Below are positions 9,834 to 23,155 of a stretch of DNA of 64,000 nt, one piece after another. The position numbers were made by a program, and so were the translations under genes. Under the pieces are notes generated by a model, which was given only the letters and a program-made list of their open reading frames with translations, did no database searches and was not told where the DNA came from. Position 1 is the stretch's first letter. Each line of letters begins with the position of its first letter. The stretch is from Caproicibacterium argilliputei (lineage in GTDB: Bacteria; Bacillota; Clostridia; Oscillospirales; Acutalibacteraceae), in NCBI RefSeq assembly GCF_029211325.2, contig NZ_CP135996.1, forward strand, positions 310,001 through 374,000. The letters run 5' to 3'.

Positions 9834-10119
9834 AAATTCAATTCTGTTCGAAATGCAAGGAAAGGGACAGCCCGCAGGAATACTCCTCTGCAGAGAGCCG
9901 CCGGTTGGTGCAAGGCGGCGGGGAGTCCGGCGGTCAATCACCCTGGAGCAGGCGGCTGAAAGCCTTTGAAGGCCAGTAAGCGCGCCCGGTTTTCCCCGTT
10001 ACAGGAACACGCATTGCTGGATGCGTATGAGGCCGCGAAAGCGGCGAAGCAGAGTGGTACCGCGGAAGCTTTGGCGCTCCCGCCTCTGAGCTTAAAAAGC
10101 CGGAGGCGGGGGCTTTTTT
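9834..10119 (+). promoter_or_regulatory. T-box leader, probably isoleucine (AUC)
   Basis: The T-box sequence AGAGTGGTACCGCGGAA lies at 10051-10067. It is followed by a GC-rich terminator hairpin (about 10075-10085 with 10103-10113) and a T-run. Upstream Stem I has the AGAGAGCC and GGTTGGTGCAAGG features. In the specifier loop, ATC at 9937-9939 followed by A and CCCTGGAGC is the best specifier codon, giving tRNA-Ile. Uncharged tRNA-Ile would pair with the specifier and T-box bulge and prevent termination, inducing ilvBNA. Confidence 0.88.
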
Positions 10120-16443: not shown

Positions 16444-17559
16444 TTATTTGCATTCGCAGTAGTTGCCGAGAAAATGGAAGCGCGGCAGTTCGTCTTCGAG
16501 CGAGCAGAGCAGCTCCAGGACTTTCGGGTCGTGTACATTGCCGGTAAAGTCCAGATAAAAGTCGTATTCAAACGTTTTACCGGCAATCGGTCGGGATTCA
16601 ATTTTTGTCAGATTCATGCCTGCCGCCGCAAAGCGGGAAAGCACAGCGTTCAGGCTGCCGGTGGTGTGCGGCACATTAAAGCAAAGACTGATTTTTTCCG
16701 CGGTGCGCGGAATGCACAGTTCCTTGCTGATGACCACAAAGCGTGTGGCGTTATTGTCGGTATTCTGGATGTCGCGCTCCAAAATGTGCAGGCCGTGTGC
16801 TTTGGCGGCGCTTTCGCTGCACACCGCGGCGACGCCTGCGTCCCGCGCCGCCAGTTCGGCGGCGGCGCTGGTGCTGCTGCTGTCAGAAAGCGGCACCTGC
16901 AGGGCAGCCAAACGCTGCGAGCACTGCATCAGCGCAATGTCTTTGGAGCGCACGCAGCGGATATCCTCGAATTTTCCGGTGCGGTTTGCCAAGCAGTGAT
17001 GTACGCCGAGCGTTTTTGCGGCGATAATTGAGAAGCAGTACTGCATCAGCAGACCGTACACTTCGCTGACGCTGCCCGCACTGGAGTTTTCTACCGGAAT
17101 TACGGCAAGGTCGGCCTCGCCTTGCTCCACACAGCGGAAAATATCCCCAAAGCGGCTGAAGAAGCTGGGAACCGCCTGCGGATACAGCTGTGACACCACA
17201 TCGTGGCTGTAAGACCCTTTCCCGCCGAGGCAGGCGATGGCGGCTGTCCGGCGCGGGGCTTCGGGCGCGGCGGCAATGCGCGTGCGCAGACGGCTGCCTG
17301 CCCCCAGAAGCGTGTGCTGCAGCGCGCGGCTCTCACTCATAATGGTGTTATAAACAATGCGCGCCGCGCCGCCGTACTCGCCCGCCTGCGCCGCAATGCG
17401 GTTTAAAATTTCCTGTTCCCGTTCCAGATTAAAAACCGGGGTGCCGTCCCGCCGCTTTACTTCCGCCACTTTTTTGGCGCAGTCCATGCGCCGTATAAAC
17501 AGCGGCAGCAACTGCGCGTCAATCGCGTCGATTTCCTTACGAATCTCGCTTAATTCCAT
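16444..17559 (-). CDS. pheA: Bifunctional chorismate mutase/prephenate dehydratase (P-protein)
   Basis: 371 aa. N-terminal AroQ-type chorismate mutase (about 1-90; IRKEIDAIDAQLLPLFIRRM, then KKVAEVKRRDG). The prephenate dehydratase domain follows (about 108-285), with the NNATRFVVIS motif containing the catalytic TRF. The C-terminal ACT domain (about 290-371) has SLCFNVPHTTGSLNAVLSRF and ESRP, the Phe-binding signature. It converts chorismate to phenylpyruvate and is normally feedback-inhibited by Phe. Last functional gene of the aro operon, 3 bases after aroC. Confidence 0.94.
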   Translation of the reverse strand: MELSEIRKEIDAIDAQLLPLFIRRMDCAKKVAEVKRRDGTPVFNLEREQEILNRIAAQAGEYGGAARIVYNTIMSESRALQHTLLGAGSRLRTRIAAAPEAPRRTAAIACLGGKGSYSHDVVSQLYPQAVPSFFSRFGDIFRCVEQGEADLAVIPVENSSAGSVSEVYGLLMQYCFSIIAAKTLGVHHCLANRTGKFEDIRCVRSKDIALMQCSQRLAALQVPLSDSSSTSAAAELAARDAGVAAVCSESAAKAHGLHILERDIQNTDNNATRFVVISKELCIPRTAEKISLCFNVPHTTGSLNAVLSRFAAAGMNLTKIESRPIAGKTFEYDFYLDFTGNVHDPKVLELLCSLEDELPRFHFLGNYCECK

Positions 17560-17562
17560 CGG

Positions 17563-18654
17563 TTACACCTCCGCAGAACCATTCAGAATACCGGGCAGAT
17601 TTAGAAGCGCCAGCGCGGCGGCAGACTCCACCACCGGCACGGCGCGGGGCACAATGCAGGGGTCGTGCCGCCCGCGCACCGCAAGCGTGGTGTTCTGCCG
17701 GGCGGCAAGGTCAATGCTTTGCTGCTCTTTGGCAATAGAGGGCGTTGGCTTAAACGCCGCACGGAACAGAATCGGCATACCGGTGGTTATGCCGCCGAGA
17801 ATGCCGCCGGCGTGATTGGTGCGCGTTTTGACCGCACCGCTTTCGTCATAAAAATAAGCATCGTTGTTTTCGCTGCCGTGCAGCTTGGCAGCGTCAAATC
17901 CCGCGCCGAACGCAACGCCTTTGCACGCGGGTATGCCAAACAGAATCGAAGAGAAAATACTTTCAACGCCGCCGAACATCCCCTCGCCGCCAAGTCCTGC
18001 CGGCACGCCGGTAATGCCGCACTCCACAATGCCGCCGATGCTGTCTTGTGCGGTGCGCGCAGCTTCGATTTCACGAATCATCGCGTCTTTCCTTTCGGCG
18101 GAAAGCACTGGAAAGTACGCGCCGCTCAGGTTTTGCAGCACTTCCGGCAGCGGGTTCAGCGGCAGGTCTTCCACAGCGCCGACTGCCGCCGCGTGCGCCC
18201 CAAGCACGATGCCCCGCCGGAGCAGAATCTGGCGGCAAACAGCGCCCGCAAAGACCAGCGGCGCGGTCAGCCTGCCGGAAAAATGCCCGCCGCCGCGTAC
18301 GTCTTGAAAACCGTGGTATTTGACCCACGCCGGATAGTCCGCATGGCCGGGACGCGGAACGGCCAGCAGATTTTGGTAGTCGCCGGAGTGTGTGTTGGTA
18401 TTGGCAATCACCGCGCACAGCGGCGCACCGGTGGTGGTGTCATGTAGAAGGCCGGAGAGCACCTGCGGCGTGTCGGCTTCTTTGCGTGGTGTGCTGGTGC
18501 GGTCTTGCCCCGGTGCGCGGCGTGCCATCTGCAGGCGCACCGCTTCTAAATCCACTGTCTCACCGGCGGGCAGTCCCTCCAGTACACAGCCGATGGCAGG
18601 GCCGTGGCTTTCCCCGAAAATACTGATTTTTACCTGATTACCCCAGGATGACAT
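17563..18654 (-). CDS. aroC: Chorismate synthase
   Basis: 363 aa FMN-dependent enzyme converting EPSP to chorismate. Signatures: GESHGPAIGCVLEGLPAGE near the N-terminus, RRAPGQDRTSTPRKEAD, and GGGHFSGRLTAPLVFAGA. Length is typical. Its ATG lies inside the last codons of aroA (17-base overlap), indicating translational coupling. Confidence 0.96.
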   Translation of the reverse strand: MSSWGNQVKISIFGESHGPAIGCVLEGLPAGETVDLEAVRLQMARRAPGQDRTSTPRKEADTPQVLSGLLHDTTTGAPLCAVIANTNTHSGDYQNLLAVPRPGHADYPAWVKYHGFQDVRGGGHFSGRLTAPLVFAGAVCRQILLRRGIVLGAHAAAVGAVEDLPLNPLPEVLQNLSGAYFPVLSAERKDAMIREIEAARTAQDSIGGIVECGITGVPAGLGGEGMFGGVESIFSSILFGIPACKGVAFGAGFDAAKLHGSENNDAYFYDESGAVKTRTNHAGGILGGITTGMPILFRAAFKPTPSIAKEQQSIDLAARQNTTLAVRGRHDPCIVPRAVPVVESAAALALLNLPGILNGSAEV

Positions 18655-19903
18655 CTGCTTTTCCTCCTAACGAACCGAACACTTCAAAAAAGTCCGGCCA
18701 GCTTTTGCGCACGGCTTCCGCATCTGTAATCACCACCGGGTGGGCTGCGTGCAGCGCAGCAACTGCCGCCGCCATCACAACGCGGTGGTCGTTATATCCG
18801 TCTGCTGTGCCGCCGCGCAGACCGGAACCGTACAGAATCAGACTGTCTGCCGTTTCTTCAGCGCGTCCGCCCAGCGAGCAGACCATCCGGTGCAGGGCAG
18901 CCAGCCGGTCACTTTCCTTCAGACGCAGCCGTGCACCGTTGAGCAGGCGGGTGTGTCCCGGCGCGCAGGCACCCATGACCGCGAGTGCGGGCGCAAGGTC
19001 GGGAATCTGCCCCACGTCAATGTCAATGCCGTGCAGTTCACCGGGGCGCGCAGTCAGAACGCCGTCCTTCCAGTGCAGATCCGCGCCGAAGCGGCACAGC
19101 AAATCCACAATGGCGCGGTCCCCCTGCGCAGAGGCAGGGTCCAGACCGGTGAGTGATACTTCACCGCTGAGCGCGCCCGCTGTGAGCAGAAACGCCGCCT
19201 GACTCCAGTCCCGCTCAATCTCCAGATTGTTTGCCTGGTAAGTTTGGTTACCCGGCACTTTCCAGCCGGTTTCGGTACAAAGGACCTGCACGCCGAATTT
19301 CTGCAGGGTGTGCACGGTCATTTCCACATAAGCGGCGCTCTGCAGCGGCGTGGTCAGCCGGATTTCGCTGTCACCCGAAAGCAGCGGCAGCGCAAAGAGC
19401 AGACCTGTGATAAATTGACTGGAAACATCGCCGGGCAGGTCGTAAAGGCCGGGTTGCAGCCTGCCCGAAACTGTCAGCGGCAGTCCACCGGCGGAGTCAC
19501 ACGAAACGCCGTGCTGCGGCAGCAGTTCCAGATAAATGCCGAGCGGGCGCTGCGGCAGCCGCCCGTGTCCGACAAATGTTGCCGTAACGCCGAGTGCCGC
19601 TGCAACCGGGATGAAAAAGCGCAGGGTAGAGCCGCTTTCGGCGCAGTCCAGTGTGACCGGTTCGGCTGGCGGTACGGAAATGCCGGTCATCTGCAGGGCA
19701 GTACCGTCCCGTACCGGCGTTGCCCCCAGTGCGTGCATACAGCCGATGGTGGCTTCCATATCTGCGCTGCTGCCGATGGGCGTCAGCGTACTGGTGCCCT
19801 GCGCAAGCCCTGCGCAAAGAATGGCGCGGTGCGCGGCGCTTTTGCTGGGCGGAGGCGCGGCGGTTCCGTGCAGGGTGCCGGGCAGAATCCGTGCGCGGCT
19901 CAT
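18638..19903 (-). CDS. aroA: 3-phosphoshikimate 1-carboxyvinyltransferase (EPSP synthase)
   Basis: 421 aa. Two-domain enzyme of the shikimate pathway adding enolpyruvate to shikimate 3-phosphate. PPSKSAAHRAILCAGLAQG (about 17-35) holds the conserved PEP/S3P-binding lysine and serine, AESGSTLRFFIPVAAALG is the central motif, and RLKESDRLAALHRMV and DYNDHRVVMAAAVAAL-like C-terminal signatures are present. Overlaps aroB by 4 bases (ATGA) and aroC by 17. Confidence 0.95.
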   Translation of the reverse strand: MSRARILPGTLHGTAAPPPSKSAAHRAILCAGLAQGTSTLTPIGSSADMEATIGCMHALGATPVRDGTALQMTGISVPPAEPVTLDCAESGSTLRFFIPVAAALGVTATFVGHGRLPQRPLGIYLELLPQHGVSCDSAGGLPLTVSGRLQPGLYDLPGDVSSQFITGLLFALPLLSGDSEIRLTTPLQSAAYVEMTVHTLQKFGVQVLCTETGWKVPGNQTYQANNLEIERDWSQAAFLLTAGALSGEVSLTGLDPASAQGDRAIVDLLCRFGADLHWKDGVLTARPGELHGIDIDVGQIPDLAPALAVMGACAPGHTRLLNGARLRLKESDRLAALHRMVCSLGGRAEETADSLILYGSGLRGGTADGYNDHRVVMAAAVAALHAAHPVVITDAEAVRKSWPDFFEVFGSLGGKADVILG

Positions 19904-20955
19904 GGCTGCACCCCACAGAGAGCAGGCAGCTCGGCACGCGGAACTTTCCGAATGAAGCTGGTGCCGATATTTTTTAGAAAAATAAGGTTCACGCTGCTGC
20001 CGCTGCTCTTTTTGTCGTGTGCGGTTGCGGGCAGCAGGACTTCCAGTGTTTCGGCGCAGGTGGTCGGCAAACCGTACTTTTGCAGAACCACCGCAATTTT
20101 TTCGGCAGTGCCTGCTTCGGTTAGTCCGGCTTTTTCGCCGATTTGTGTAATCAGCAGCATACCGATGCCCACCGCCTTGCCGTGGGAAAGACCGCCGTAG
20201 TGCTGTACGCGCTCCAGTGCGTGCCCGAGGGTGTGTCCGAAGTTCAGGACGGCGCGCTCACCGGTGTCGTGCTCATCGCGTTCCACCACCTGCCGTTTGA
20301 TGTCAACACAGGTGTAAATCATTTCGGAAAGCCAGCCGCGGCAGTCTTCTGCCGCCAGACGGTCAAACAGCGCCTTGTCGCGAATACAGCCGTATTTAAT
20401 GACTTCTCCCATGCCGTCTGCAAAGTATGCGGCGGGCAGGGTAGTTAGGGTTTCCGGGTCAATCAGCACCAGTGCGGGCTGATGAAACGCCCCAACCAGA
20501 TTTTTTCCCTCCGGCAAGTCAACGCCGGTTTTGCCCCCAACGGAGGAATCCACCTGCGAAAGCAGTGTGGTTGGTAGTTGGATGAATGGAATGCCGCGCA
20601 GCCAGGTGGCCGCCGCAAAGCCGGTCATATCACCGCACACGCCGCCGCCGAGCGCCACGGCGAAATCTGTGCGCGTCAGCTCCGCTTCGGCAAATGCCGT
20701 GTACAGAGAGGAGATGGACGCCAGATTTTTGCTTTGCTCACCTGCAGGAAATACGGAAACGGACGTCCGAAAGCCTGCAGCTTCCAGCGCACAGCGAACG
20801 GTTTCCACGTACAGCGGGGCAACATTGGTGTCGGTAACGAGGACAGCGCGTTCCGCCGCCGGCAGCAGTGCCTTGGCACGTGTTCCAATTTGTGAAAGGC
20901 AGCCGCTTTCAATGATGATTTCGTAGGAAGGCTGTGTGTGTACAGTCAGATTCAT
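19900..20955 (-). CDS. aroB: 3-dehydroquinate synthase
   Basis: 351 aa NAD- and metal-dependent enzyme cyclising DAHP. Key parts: ALGGGVCGDMTGFAAATWLRG (glycine-rich NAD site), QLPTTLLSQVDSSVGGKTGV, and the metal-binding histidines in NFGHTLGHALE and GLSHGKAVGIG. Full length. Start codon overlaps the tyrA stop by 4 bases, and its own stop overlaps the aroA start by 4. Confidence 0.95.
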   Translation of the reverse strand: MNLTVHTQPSYEIIIESGCLSQIGTRAKALLPAAERAVLVTDTNVAPLYVETVRCALEAAGFRTSVSVFPAGEQSKNLASISSLYTAFAEAELTRTDFAVALGGGVCGDMTGFAAATWLRGIPFIQLPTTLLSQVDSSVGGKTGVDLPEGKNLVGAFHQPALVLIDPETLTTLPAAYFADGMGEVIKYGCIRDKALFDRLAAEDCRGWLSEMIYTCVDIKRQVVERDEHDTGERAVLNFGHTLGHALERVQHYGGLSHGKAVGIGMLLITQIGEKAGLTEAGTAEKIAVVLQKYGLPTTCAETLEVLLPATAHDKKSSGSSVNLIFLKNIGTSFIRKVPRAELPALCGVQP

Positions 20956-21788
20956 TCTCCCAGTTCCTCCTTAATCAGGCGGCCCTGCCGCAGCAGCGCC
21001 TCCAGCTTGTTCCGGTCGTTTTCCGCCACGGCACTGCGGATATCCGAAAGGTTTTCCAGCAGCGTGTCCAACTCTGCGGTGAGCGCGGCGCGGTTGTCCA
21101 AAAACAGCTCTGCCCACATGACTTCGTTGATGTTTGCCACGCGCGAAACATCGCGGTAGCTGCCTGCGGAAAAGCCGCGGTGTCCCAGGCAGCGCGGGCT
21201 CATCACATAAGCGCACGCCAGCGCGTGCGGCAGCTGGCTGGTAAAAGCAATCATCTGGTCGTGTTCTTCCGGCGTTGTGGTGACCGAGCGCCCAAAGCCC
21301 AGCGTAAACGCGGTCTGCCGCAGCAGTTCCTGTACTTGTGCAGGAGCACTGCAGGGTACCAGAATGTAACTTGCCCCTTGAAACAGGTCAGCGCGCGAGG
21401 CGGAAAAGCCGTGCTTTTCCGTGCCCGCCATCGGGTGCGCGCCGCAGTACGGGAAGCCGCCTTTTTTTGACAACGCGGTCAGCGCACGGCAGACCTCCGT
21501 TTTGATGCCGCAGACGTCGGTGACGATGGTGTGCGGGGAGAAAGCAGAAAGATGACCCTTTACAAAATCAATGTCCGCCTGCGGGTACAGGCAAAGATAC
21601 ACAATGTCTGCACTGCGCAGGTCGTTGTCATCCCCGACTTTGGTCACCGCGCCGCAGGCGAGCGCGGCTTCCAGCGCGGCGGGGTCGGTGTCGATTCCGG
21701 CCACGCGGCAGTCGGTATACTGCGTAAATGCCTTTGCGAGACTGCCGCCAATCAGACCAAGCCCCACAATTACGATGTTTTTTTTCAC
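20952..21788 (-). CDS. tyrA: Prephenate dehydrogenase
   Basis: 278 aa from GTG 21788, which has GGGAGGA 7 bases upstream; the longer frame to 21830 has no RBS and non-homologous residues. NAD-binding IVIVGLGLIGGSLAKAF is at the N-terminus; the active-site segment CGAHPMAGTEKHGFSAS includes the conserved histidine. Converts prephenate to 4-hydroxyphenylpyruvate for tyrosine. No C-terminal ACT domain and no fused chorismate mutase, so the mutase is probably supplied by PheA. Confidence 0.92.
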   Translation of the reverse strand: MKKNIVIVGLGLIGGSLAKAFTQYTDCRVAGIDTDPAALEAALACGAVTKVGDDNDLRSADIVYLCLYPQADIDFVKGHLSAFSPHTIVTDVCGIKTEVCRALTALSKKGGFPYCGAHPMAGTEKHGFSASRADLFQGASYILVPCSAPAQVQELLRQTAFTLGFGRSVTTTPEEHDQMIAFTSQLPHALACAYVMSPRCLGHRGFSAGSYRDVSRVANINEVMWAELFLDNRAALTAELDTLLENLSDIRSAVAENDRNKLEALLRQGRLIKEELGE

Positions 21789-21836
21789 AGCAGATTCCTC
21801 CCGGCATGGTTTTTGTGTTTTGCGCGGCACGCAGGG

Positions 21837-22859
21837 CTACAGCGACTTTCCGAAGAACGGGGCAATCTCCCGAATGCGGCCCGCCACATGGTCAAACTGG
21901 TCCGGTGTCAGGGACTGCGCACCATCGGAAAGCGCTTTTGGCGGATTGTTGTGCACTTCAATAATCAGACCGTCCGCTCCGGCGGCGACCGCCGCCATGG
22001 CCAGCGGCTCTACCAGCCAGGCAATGCCGCCCGCATGGCTGGGGTCAACCACAACCGGCAGGTGGGAGATCTTTTTCAGAATCGGCACAGCGGAAATATC
22101 CAGTGTGTTACGGGTGTAGGTTTCGTAGGTGCGGATGCCGCGTTCGCAAAGGATGACGTTGCTGTTGCCGCCTGCCATGATATACTCTGCGCTCATGAGC
22201 AGTTCCTCAATTGTGGCGGAAAGACCGCGCTTGAGCAGAATCGGCGTTTGCAGATGTCCCAGTTCCCGCAGCAGGTCGAAGTTTTGCATATTGCGTGCGC
22301 CGACCTGAATGATGTCAACACCTGCCTGCAGGAACAGGTCAATCTGCCGCACGCTCATCAGCTCGGTGACAATGGGCAGCCCAGTTTCTTTTTTGGCGGC
22401 GTTGAGCAGATCCAGCCCCTGTGCCTTCAGCCCCTGAAATGCATAGGGGCTGGTGCGCGGCTTAAACGCACCGCCGCGCAAAAACTGCGCGCCGGCGTGT
22501 TGCACCCGTTTGGCAACTTCCGTAATCTGCGCTTCGGACTCGACACTGCACGGGCCGGCAATCAGCGCTAGTTTTTCGCCACCAATTTGCAAGCCGTTCG
22601 GCAGGGTGACCACGGTGTCATCTGGGTGGAACTTGCGGTTTGCCTTTTTGTACGGTTCCTGCACACGCTTGACAGACTCGACAATTTCATTGGCGGCGAT
22701 GTTGTCAATGTCAATGCAGGCTGTGTCGCCGATTAAGCCGAGCACGGTGCTCTGTGTGCCAACCCAGGTGTTGACGGCAACGCCGTAGGTGTCTTCCAGT
22801 TCCGCAATGAACGTGTCGCGCTGCACCCTTGTGCAGTCCGGCTTCAAAACGATAATCAT
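21837..22859 (-). CDS. aroF: 3-deoxy-7-phosphoheptulonate (DAHP) synthase, type I-beta
   Basis: 340 aa. First committed step: PEP plus erythrose 4-phosphate. An N-terminal about 70-residue ferredoxin-like regulatory domain (MIIVLKPDCTRVQRDTFIAE) precedes the KDO8PS-like TIM barrel with LIAGPCSVESEAQI, GGAFKPRTSPYAFQGL and VDPSHAGG metal/substrate motifs. The extra domain in this subclass is often the site of Tyr/Phe inhibition. ATG 22859 has GGAGGG 8 bases upstream. It is the first gene after a leader ORF and terminator, so it and the whole block may be attenuation-controlled. Confidence 0.94.
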   Translation of the reverse strand: MIIVLKPDCTRVQRDTFIAELEDTYGVAVNTWVGTQSTVLGLIGDTACIDIDNIAANEIVESVKRVQEPYKKANRKFHPDDTVVTLPNGLQIGGEKLALIAGPCSVESEAQITEVAKRVQHAGAQFLRGGAFKPRTSPYAFQGLKAQGLDLLNAAKKETGLPIVTELMSVRQIDLFLQAGVDIIQVGARNMQNFDLLRELGHLQTPILLKRGLSATIEELLMSAEYIMAGGNSNVILCERGIRTYETYTRNTLDISAVPILKKISHLPVVVDPSHAGGIAWLVEPLAMAAVAAGADGLIIEVHNNPPKALSDGAQSLTPDQFDHVAGRIREIAPFFGKSL

Positions 22860-22889: not shown

Positions 22890-22922
22890 AAAAAAAGACG
22901 GAGCTGCTGATGCGCTCCGTCC
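22890..22922 (-). terminator. Leader terminator (attenuator) before aroF
   Basis: Stem GACGGAGC / GCTCCGTC with a 9-base loop, then seven T residues (22896-22890) on the minus strand. It lies between a short leader ORF and aroF, the classic place for an attenuator. Confidence 0.8.
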
Positions 22923-22960
22923 AAAAGCCTATGCAAACATGAGAAAAATAGTCTGCGCCT

Positions 22961-23068
22961 TTAACAGGGAAGCTTCCGGCAGGAATCTGCACACAGCGAA
23001 AAAGCCCGGGTAAAAAAGCAGCCGGGAAACAGGGAAACGCTAAATCGATGTGTGCCGAAAATCTGCAT
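22961..23068 (-). CDS. Phe-rich leader peptide of the aro/tyr/phe operon (candidate)
   Basis: 35 codons, ATG 23068 to TAA 22961. AAGGAG sits 8 bases before the ATG, an excellent RBS. The product begins MQIFGTHRFSVSLFPGCFF and contains six Phe codons (positions 4, 9, 14, 18, 19, 23; five of them TTT) plus four Cys. The stop is about 38 bases before the terminator stem. Ribosome stalling at Phe codons could allow read-through into aroF-pheA. Ribosome-mediated Phe attenuation is known from enterobacterial pheA. I know of no established case in this lineage, so the function is inference. Confidence 0.55.
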   Translation of the reverse strand: MQIFGTHRFSVSLFPGCFFTRAFSLCADSCRKLPC

Positions 23069-23124
23069 GAAGAAAGCTCCTTCCAGAAAAAGGACGCGAA
23101 AGTCGTAAAGAAAAGTCTGTGCTT

Positions 23125-23155
23125 ATCATAATACAGAAGGGAGGCGCTTGTCAAT
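23125..23155 (-). promoter_or_regulatory. Promoter of the aroF-pheA operon
   Basis: On the minus strand, TTGACA is followed after 18 bases by TATGAT (TATTAT overlaps it with shorter spacing). It lies downstream of the aroE-aroK stop and about 60 bases before the leader ORF. Confidence 0.65.

Follow-up and report, generated by a model that had tools for sequence, protein, structure and literature searches.

The window, that is, the whole stretch of 64,000 nucleotides analyzed here from Caproicibacterium argilliputei, carries on its minus strand an operon for the synthesis of aromatic amino acids, the first gene of which, aroF (21837..22859, start at 22859), codes for a DAHP synthase with an FXD domain (Pfam PF18152 and PF00793). 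The remaining genes, tyrA, aroB, aroA, aroC, and pheA, occupy 16444..21830 on the same strand, and Pfam assignments agree with the order aroF-tyrA-aroB-aroA-aroC-pheA that had been given in an earlier note on this DNA. The end products of the operon include phenylalanine (pheA) and tyrosine (tyrA); tryptophan is not made by it. A gene fusing shikimate dehydrogenase and shikimate kinase (Pfam) lies upstream of the leader and the aroF operon. The genome encodes a second DAHP synthase that is 52% identical (L002, G000:C1:2876951-2877961) and was excluded from all counts; the stretch just 5′ of this paralogue resembles a 5S rRNA, and no leader ORF was found by eye upstream of it. Other RNA features of the window are an S10-Clostridia ribosomal protein leader (RF03136; 31256-31331, plus strand) and an RNase P RNA of class A (RF00010; 54843-55195, minus strand).

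Organization of the aroF Leader

The leader begins, also on the minus strand, with a promoter (23125..23154) composed of TTGACA (−35, 23154-23149), an 18-nt spacer and TATGAT (−10, 23130-23125), the position of which would place the transcription start at about 23119. A Shine-Dalgarno (SD) motif, AAGGAG (23077..23082), precedes an ORF of 35 codons and a stop (22961..23068) that encodes the peptide MQIFGTHRFSVSLFPGCFFTRAFSLCADSCRKLPC, with Phe at positions 4, 9, 14, 18, 19, and 23 (six of the 35 codons), Cys at positions 17, 26, 30, and 35, and no Tyr. Downstream lies an intrinsic terminator (22890..22922), consisting of a stem-loop at 22922-22896 (−17.7 kcal/mol), in the stem of which both-sided changes occur, and seven T residues at 22896-22890. 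The ORF, with its SD, start and stop, sits between promoter and terminator and is thus predicted at the sequence level to be translatable. The earlier note had described the promoter, the ribosome-binding site, the 35-codon ORF with its stop, the six Phe positions and the terminator with seven T residues before aroF, all of which are borne out by direct reading and translation of the minus strand and by the folding energy.

The leader can be divided into segments with competing partners. The outer part of segment 1 is the SD region itself (GGAGCTTTC, 23072..23080), paired with 22977-22968 at the end of the ORF according to the MFE fold, the 1:2 duplex test and the swap control; segment 1 thereby extends to the leader's own SD. 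Segment 2 (22970..22994) is the end of the ORF, and folds, duplex tests and swap controls give it segment 1 or segment 3 as partner. Segment 3 (22910..22930) comprises the spacer and the 5′ arm of the terminator and forms a predicted antiterminator with segment 2 when the RNA is folded with a ribosome at codon 19 and arm 4 absent, while segments 3 and 4 together make the terminator. Inside the ORF, RNAalifold pairs from 17 sequences define a hairpin (CCCGG...CCGGG, 23005..23026), the loop of which holds Phe18-Phe19, and the alignment of 17 leaders draws attention to a heptamer, CGATTTA (23041..23047), that covers codons 8-9 and the first base of codon 10.

Distribution of the Leader among Clostridia

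Of 10 same-genus genomes, 9 showed an orthologous aroF; the remaining one, which is 67% complete, yielded the paralogue only. All nine orthologues are preceded by a leader ORF with SD and by a terminator, the 5′ arm of which includes CGGAG in every case, and 9/9 leaders have upstream of them a TTGACA-18 nt-TATGAT or -TATAGT promoter. Aromatic residues recur near window positions 9, 14, 18-19, and 23; position 12, a Ser in the window, is often aromatic, and the remaining residues drift. The other nine same-genus leaders contain three to nine F/Y/W residues each.

For a broader view, 110 upstream regions were gathered, 30 from the window's own genome and its relatives and 80 from named contigs, of which one duplicate (L032) was dropped; some of the 109 regions are truncated at contig ends (L039, 118 nt; L022 and L062, 365 nt; L046, 436 nt). 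Leaders were picked by a rule ignorant of amino acids, which called for a terminator of −10 kcal/mol or lower no more than 200 nt from aroF, together with an ATG-initiated ORF of 15-50 codons that has an SD match of at least 4 nt and a stop located −10 to 110 nt ahead of the terminator. Of the 109 regions, 76 have a terminator and an ORF, 17 a terminator without ORF, 14 no terminator, and 2 a T-box motif. The 76 picked leaders consist of 16.8% F, 8.7% Y, and 1.2% W, the corresponding values for the two alternative reading frames of this DNA being 9.3/12.1% F and 1.2/4.9% Y. Holders of the leader include Clostridium weizhouense, C. chromiireducens, C. cuniculi, C. nigeriense, C. mediterraneense, C. 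ganghwense, and Marasmitruncus massiliensis, among others. At the scale of the class, an aroF match was obtained in 220 of 293 genomes, and 80 upstream regions from 79 genomes were hand-chosen for family spread among the best matches listed (L135 is truncated at a contig end). This sample divides into 48 regions with terminator and ORF, 14 with a terminator without ORF, 16 with no terminator, and 2 with a T-box motif; by our own tally its 48 leaders span 30 family labels, and they contain 17.1% F, 12.5% Y, and 1.0% W. The ORF is therefore kept in 9/9 same-genus orthologues and in 48/80 regions of the class sample, and the lack of conservation on which the earlier note had offered to give up its reading is not observed. 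A relaxed rule, admitting other start codons and weaker SDs and requiring F/Y, rescues 7 of 33 and 12 of 32 remaining regions; as 28 of 400 shuffles also pass, some of these additions are due to chance.

F and Y together amount to at least 15% in 71/76 and 46/48 strict picks, the picks below this value being L008, which belongs to the window's genus, L035, L049, L058, L111, L123, and L156. Tyr is present in 70/76 and 47/48 leaders, so that the window leader is among the few that are Tyr-free, and 122 of the 124 leaders of both sets are distinct. Beyond what the earlier note had described, most relatives thus have codons for both Phe and Tyr, and the leader is widespread at aroF. Trp was considered as a third signal and rejected, there being no enrichment (about 1%) in either leader set. 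Cys was likewise set aside as a signal; it shows a small excess only, 4.0% near aroF vs. 2.9% elsewhere, which may stem from TGC/TGT within segment 2.

The position of these leaders was assessed with a matched control in 80 named loci (2.16 Mb, both strands), which contain 182 candidates made of SD, ATG ORF and terminator. The 54 candidates located less than 250 nt upstream of aroF have 16.8% F and 8.4% Y, the 128 found elsewhere in the same loci 4.4% F and 1.8% Y, and 43 of the 44 aromatic-rich candidates, in 41 loci, lie less than 250 nt 5′ of aroF (the exception is L045:16031). Another scan, extended to other loci and to the window itself, produced 62 hits, of which 45 precede an ORF with an aroF-like start pattern; 16 of the 17 other rows likewise precede aroF, as judged by reading. 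The earlier note had also allowed for an unrelated upstream ORF, an alternative that is contradicted by the Phe/Tyr enrichment and by the aroF-adjacent position of the aromatic-rich candidates.

A search of the window's own genome with model R1, which is sequence-only because the ORF-only set gave no structure, found one strong copy (E 6.4e-19), the runner-up having an E of 0.08. In one relative (G437; L236, G437:C2:46500-56500) the leader occurs twice, about 3 kb apart, one copy lying 5′ of aroF and the other 5′ of an in-frame fusion of an FXD domain with shikimate kinase (Pfam, single frame); this second copy suggests that the leader may serve as a portable control unit. In L225, a gene from the family of NAD-dependent epimerases (PF01370) is located between an aromatic leader with a terminator-like hairpin and aroF.

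Predicted Competing Pairings in the Leader RNA

Duplex energies of the 76 leaders were compared with those of 200 dinucleotide shuffles. The mean z is −1.30 for the 2:3 duplex (p < 0.05 in 24/76) and −1.55 for the 1:2 duplex (p < 0.05 in 27/76), the per-leader tests being mostly weak, and segment 2 is common to both best duplexes (overlap of at least 4 nt) in 73/76 leaders. The window alone gives z 0.2 (p 0.57) for 2:3, computed with the terminator arm only, and z −2.0 for 1:2. A swap control was run on 121 distinct leaders of 123 usable ones, with 60 partners each and segment 3 taken with 8 nt of spacer. Native 2:3 partners have mean z values of −1.16/−1.24, rank in the best 5% in 33 and 35 of 121 leaders and beat the middle in 104 and 106 of 121; for 1:2 the mean z is −1.61/−1.59, with 57 and 55 of 121 in the best 5%. 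For the window itself the scores are −1.9/−2.2 for 2:3 and −1.7/−1.7 for 1:2, and its 2:3 pairing is significant in the swap control only. Related leaders are non-independent in these pairing tests. On average over leaders, the competing pairings 1:2 and 2:3 appear to be coadapted, a conclusion supported by sequence comparison, and the same averages point to mutually exclusive 1:2, 2:3, and 3:4 pairings that have segments 2 and 3 in common.

Comparative folding captures other parts of the structure. RNAalifold recovers two elements, the hairpin within the ORF and the terminator, with both-sided changes in 6 of 15 pairs of the window clade and 9 of 17 pairs in Clostridium; applied to whole leaders, it returns these two elements only, and the alternative helices are absent. 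Across 12 leaders of the Clostridium type, the terminator has a nearly invariant CTCATTA on its loop side, and its outer stem covaries; such invariance is expected if CTCATTA also pairs with TAATGAG at the end of the ORF. This Clostridium 2:3 helix (CTCATTA:TAATGAG) is 94% paired, vs. 21-78% when slid, and its alignment contains zero both-sided changes and no excess over column shuffles.

Ribosome Position and the Proposed Attenuation Mechanism

The effect of a ribosome on these pairings was modeled as masking, i.e., the free energy with which RNA 3′ of the ribosome hides the 5′ arm of the terminator while arm 4 is not yet made. Over the 76 leaders, the mean masking is −5.7 kcal/mol for a ribosome placed on F/Y codons, as against −2.7 kcal/mol at the stop and −3.4 kcal/mol when ribosome-free; stalled masking is more than 2 kcal/mol stronger than at the stop in 48/76 leaders and than without ribosome in 43/76. 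Against 60 shuffles for each leader, averaged over every second F/Y codon, the mean z is −0.80 for stalled masking and −1.05 and −1.42 for the two differences. Masking is not stronger in the stalled state than at the stop in 9/76 leaders (L005, L006, L007, L023, L029, L034, L038, L062, and L084), the first three of which belong to the window's own genus, and the gain is below 1 kcal/mol in 8 further leaders. In the window, masking amounts to −9.6 kcal/mol at F9, −10.0 kcal/mol at F18/F19 and −10.2 kcal/mol at F23, and weakens to between −1.2 and −3.5 kcal/mol from codon 30 to the stop, with −3.5 kcal/mol at the stop itself.

The folding of antiterminator structures that the earlier note had recommended has a divided outcome: masking is stronger at Phe codons, but the completed terminator is still favored at equilibrium with the ribosome at F18-F23. 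In the window, scanned at every second codon, its probability is 0.87-0.93 at codons 18-24 and falls as low as 0.21-0.23 at codons 14-16 alone, so that it dominates except around codons 12-16. The antiterminator would consequently have to win by forming first, a kinetic order that is assumed here as it is for other attenuators.

The window element is very probably a classical ribosome-mediated transcription attenuator that senses phenylalanine, and we read the attenuators of most relatives as likely sensing Phe plus Tyr. The computation supports the anatomy, the conservation of the ORF, the enrichment in Phe/Tyr and the coadaptation of the 1:2 and 2:3 duplexes; we infer, in addition, the sequence of steps, the role of Phe-tRNA as signal and a kinetic edge of the antiterminator. 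RNA polymerase would initiate near 23119, and a ribosome would load onto the leader ORF. If charged Phe-tRNA is available, the ribosome would reach the stop and cover segment 2, the terminator (22922-22896) would form, and transcription would stop before aroF. If Phe-tRNA is scarce, the ribosome would stall at Phe codons within the initial two thirds of the reading frame and the 1:2 hairpin would open, whereupon segment 2 (22994-22970) would pair with segment 3 (22930-22910), including the 5′ arm of the terminator, and polymerase would read into aroF-tyrA-aroB-aroA-aroC-pheA. Without a ribosome, the SD region would pair with the end of the ORF (1:2), and the terminator would form. The attenuation reading of the earlier note is favored by the coadapted pairings and by the predicted masking of the arm at Phe codons, both in the window and on average. 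A further observation counts against this explanation, namely that the window leader is Tyr-free although the operon includes tyrA.

The CGATTTA Heptamer and Alternative Explanations

CGATTTA is invariant in the 17 aligned leaders, the mean identity of which is 51%, and in one clade, that of the window, it is better conserved than the sequence around it. It occurs in 27 of 122 distinct leaders, with the CGA at codons 7-9 in 26 of them and further in for L187. The 76 leaders encode 39 RF pairs, and 31 of these use CGA for the Arg; CGA accounts for 4 of the 156 Arg codons across the seven aro genes of the window. Placement of the heptamer in one fixed helix was rejected, as its pairing and partners vary among 24 leaders, and this inconsistent pairing makes a decoding or pausing role possible. 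A far-reaching proposal, which we regard as speculative and rather doubtful, is that in the class Clostridia, whose members employ T-boxes for other amino acids, the first enzyme of the shikimate pathway is controlled ancestrally and predominantly by a dual Phe/Tyr leader-peptide attenuator, and that in the window clade the fixed CGA-UUU (a rare Arg codon, possibly slow, before a conserved Phe) serves to gate the timing of the leading ribosome.

The same codons give some footing to nascent-peptide arrest, in which the leader peptide, rather than uncharged tRNA, would stall the ribosome on free Phe/Tyr or another metabolite and throw the same RNA switch. The Arg-Phe conserved near codons 8-9 in one clade, with its bias for CGA, could be read in this way, as could the recurrence of the peptide pattern [FY]FSAG in 11/76 and 3/48 leaders (e.g., L055, L057, L061, L072, and L085), which possibly arises from the ORF hairpin at the RNA level. 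However, Phe and Tyr interchange among leaders and form runs midway along the ORF, residues other than Phe/Tyr vary widely, and the RNA pairing of segment 2 can explain part of the C-terminal pattern, all of which makes peptide arrest improbable. No NCBIfam family matches the window leader peptide.

Control by a T-box, a TRAP-like system or a riboswitch, the ORF being incidental, is still less probable. T-boxes are at home in this genome, which has 11 matches, 4 of them above the Rfam cut-off, and the consensus motif appears in the 2/109 and 2/80 aroF upstream regions mentioned above. One T-box match lies in the window at 9849-10090 (plus strand; 91.2 bits, just below the Rfam cut-off of 93), directly 5′ of a gene for a TPP enzyme (PF02776) that resembles ilvB, the gene of acetolactate synthase; the window would therefore carry T-box and leader peptide alike. 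The aroF leader, on the other hand, matches no Rfam family at the gathering score, and its matches up to E = 10 are all far below the cut-offs and include no T-box, just as the earlier note had seen none; the genome-wide T-box search lists none here, so that a T-box at the aroF leader is refuted. The recurrence of the ORF and of its aromatic content across the class argues in the same direction. Finally, an unrelated small protein gene or a chance ORF beside a plain terminator, for which the four Cys and scattered Phe, less clean than in enterobacterial leaders, might speak, is the least credible explanation, as the drifting ORF retains its aromatic codons and pairing segments and nearly all aromatic-rich candidates of the 80 loci lie just upstream of aroF.

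Significance and Comparison with Known Systems

The control of amino acid genes in Firmicutes is usually described in terms of T-boxes, TRAP and repressors. In the majority of sampled Clostridia, a Phe/Tyr leader precedes aroF, and T-box motifs are rare there. Many of these Clostridia come from gut and rumen by record, and the leader predicts the regulatory input of aromatic amino acid synthesis in a major gut lineage. The leader set also constitutes a large natural alignment for the study of attenuator evolution and of the exchange between T-boxes and leaders, and, since Rfam 15 is silent on it in the window, the aroF leader is a candidate RNA family for annotation. Leader-peptide attenuation is already known as a kind; as for the aroF family, Rfam has no match to it in the window, and in the open-access literature we found no Phe/Tyr leader described for aroF of Clostridia.

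The Phe attenuators of enterobacteria are the pheA and pheST leaders, represented in Rfam by Phe_leader, a covariance model that has no match in the window leader at the gathering score or up to E = 10. They likewise combine a Phe-rich leader ORF, alternative hairpins and an intrinsic terminator with a downstream gene of Phe biosynthesis. The aroF leader differs from them in its phylum, in a gene order that starts with aroF and in its lack of an Rfam match, and further in the presence of Phe plus Tyr codons in most leaders, in the CGATTTA of one clade and, in the window, in a segment 1 that extends to the leader's own SD.

Among Gram-positive bacteria, His leader attenuators are described in restricted groups of Firmicutes (PMC2965389, PMC9413887), where leader-peptide attenuation also replaces the T-box; they differ from the aroF leader by their histidine genes and restricted distribution. 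Similarly, the branched-chain amino acid operon of S. aureus is described, with experiments, as having a leucine-responsive, cis-acting leader-peptide attenuator (PMC5794164), a Firmicute case that differs in amino acid (Leu) and operon. A survey of T-boxes places tyrosine biosynthesis under T-box control in the B. cereus group, and its main text has zero occurrences of aroF (PMC2494555). Going by published descriptions, the closest object found is the uORFC-13-1 motif, a candidate upstream ORF with one or more Phe codons and a terminator directly 5′ of aroF in Acholeplasma, for which attenuation has been proposed (PMC8632094). It is described from 24 representatives, confined to Acholeplasma and environmental sequences, that have at least one Phe codon each (PMC8632094). 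The leader presented here shares with it the candidate Phe-codon ORF and the terminator directly upstream of aroF and, compared with that published description only, differs in its occurrence in many Clostridia, its Phe/Tyr runs and its tested pairings (PMC8632094).
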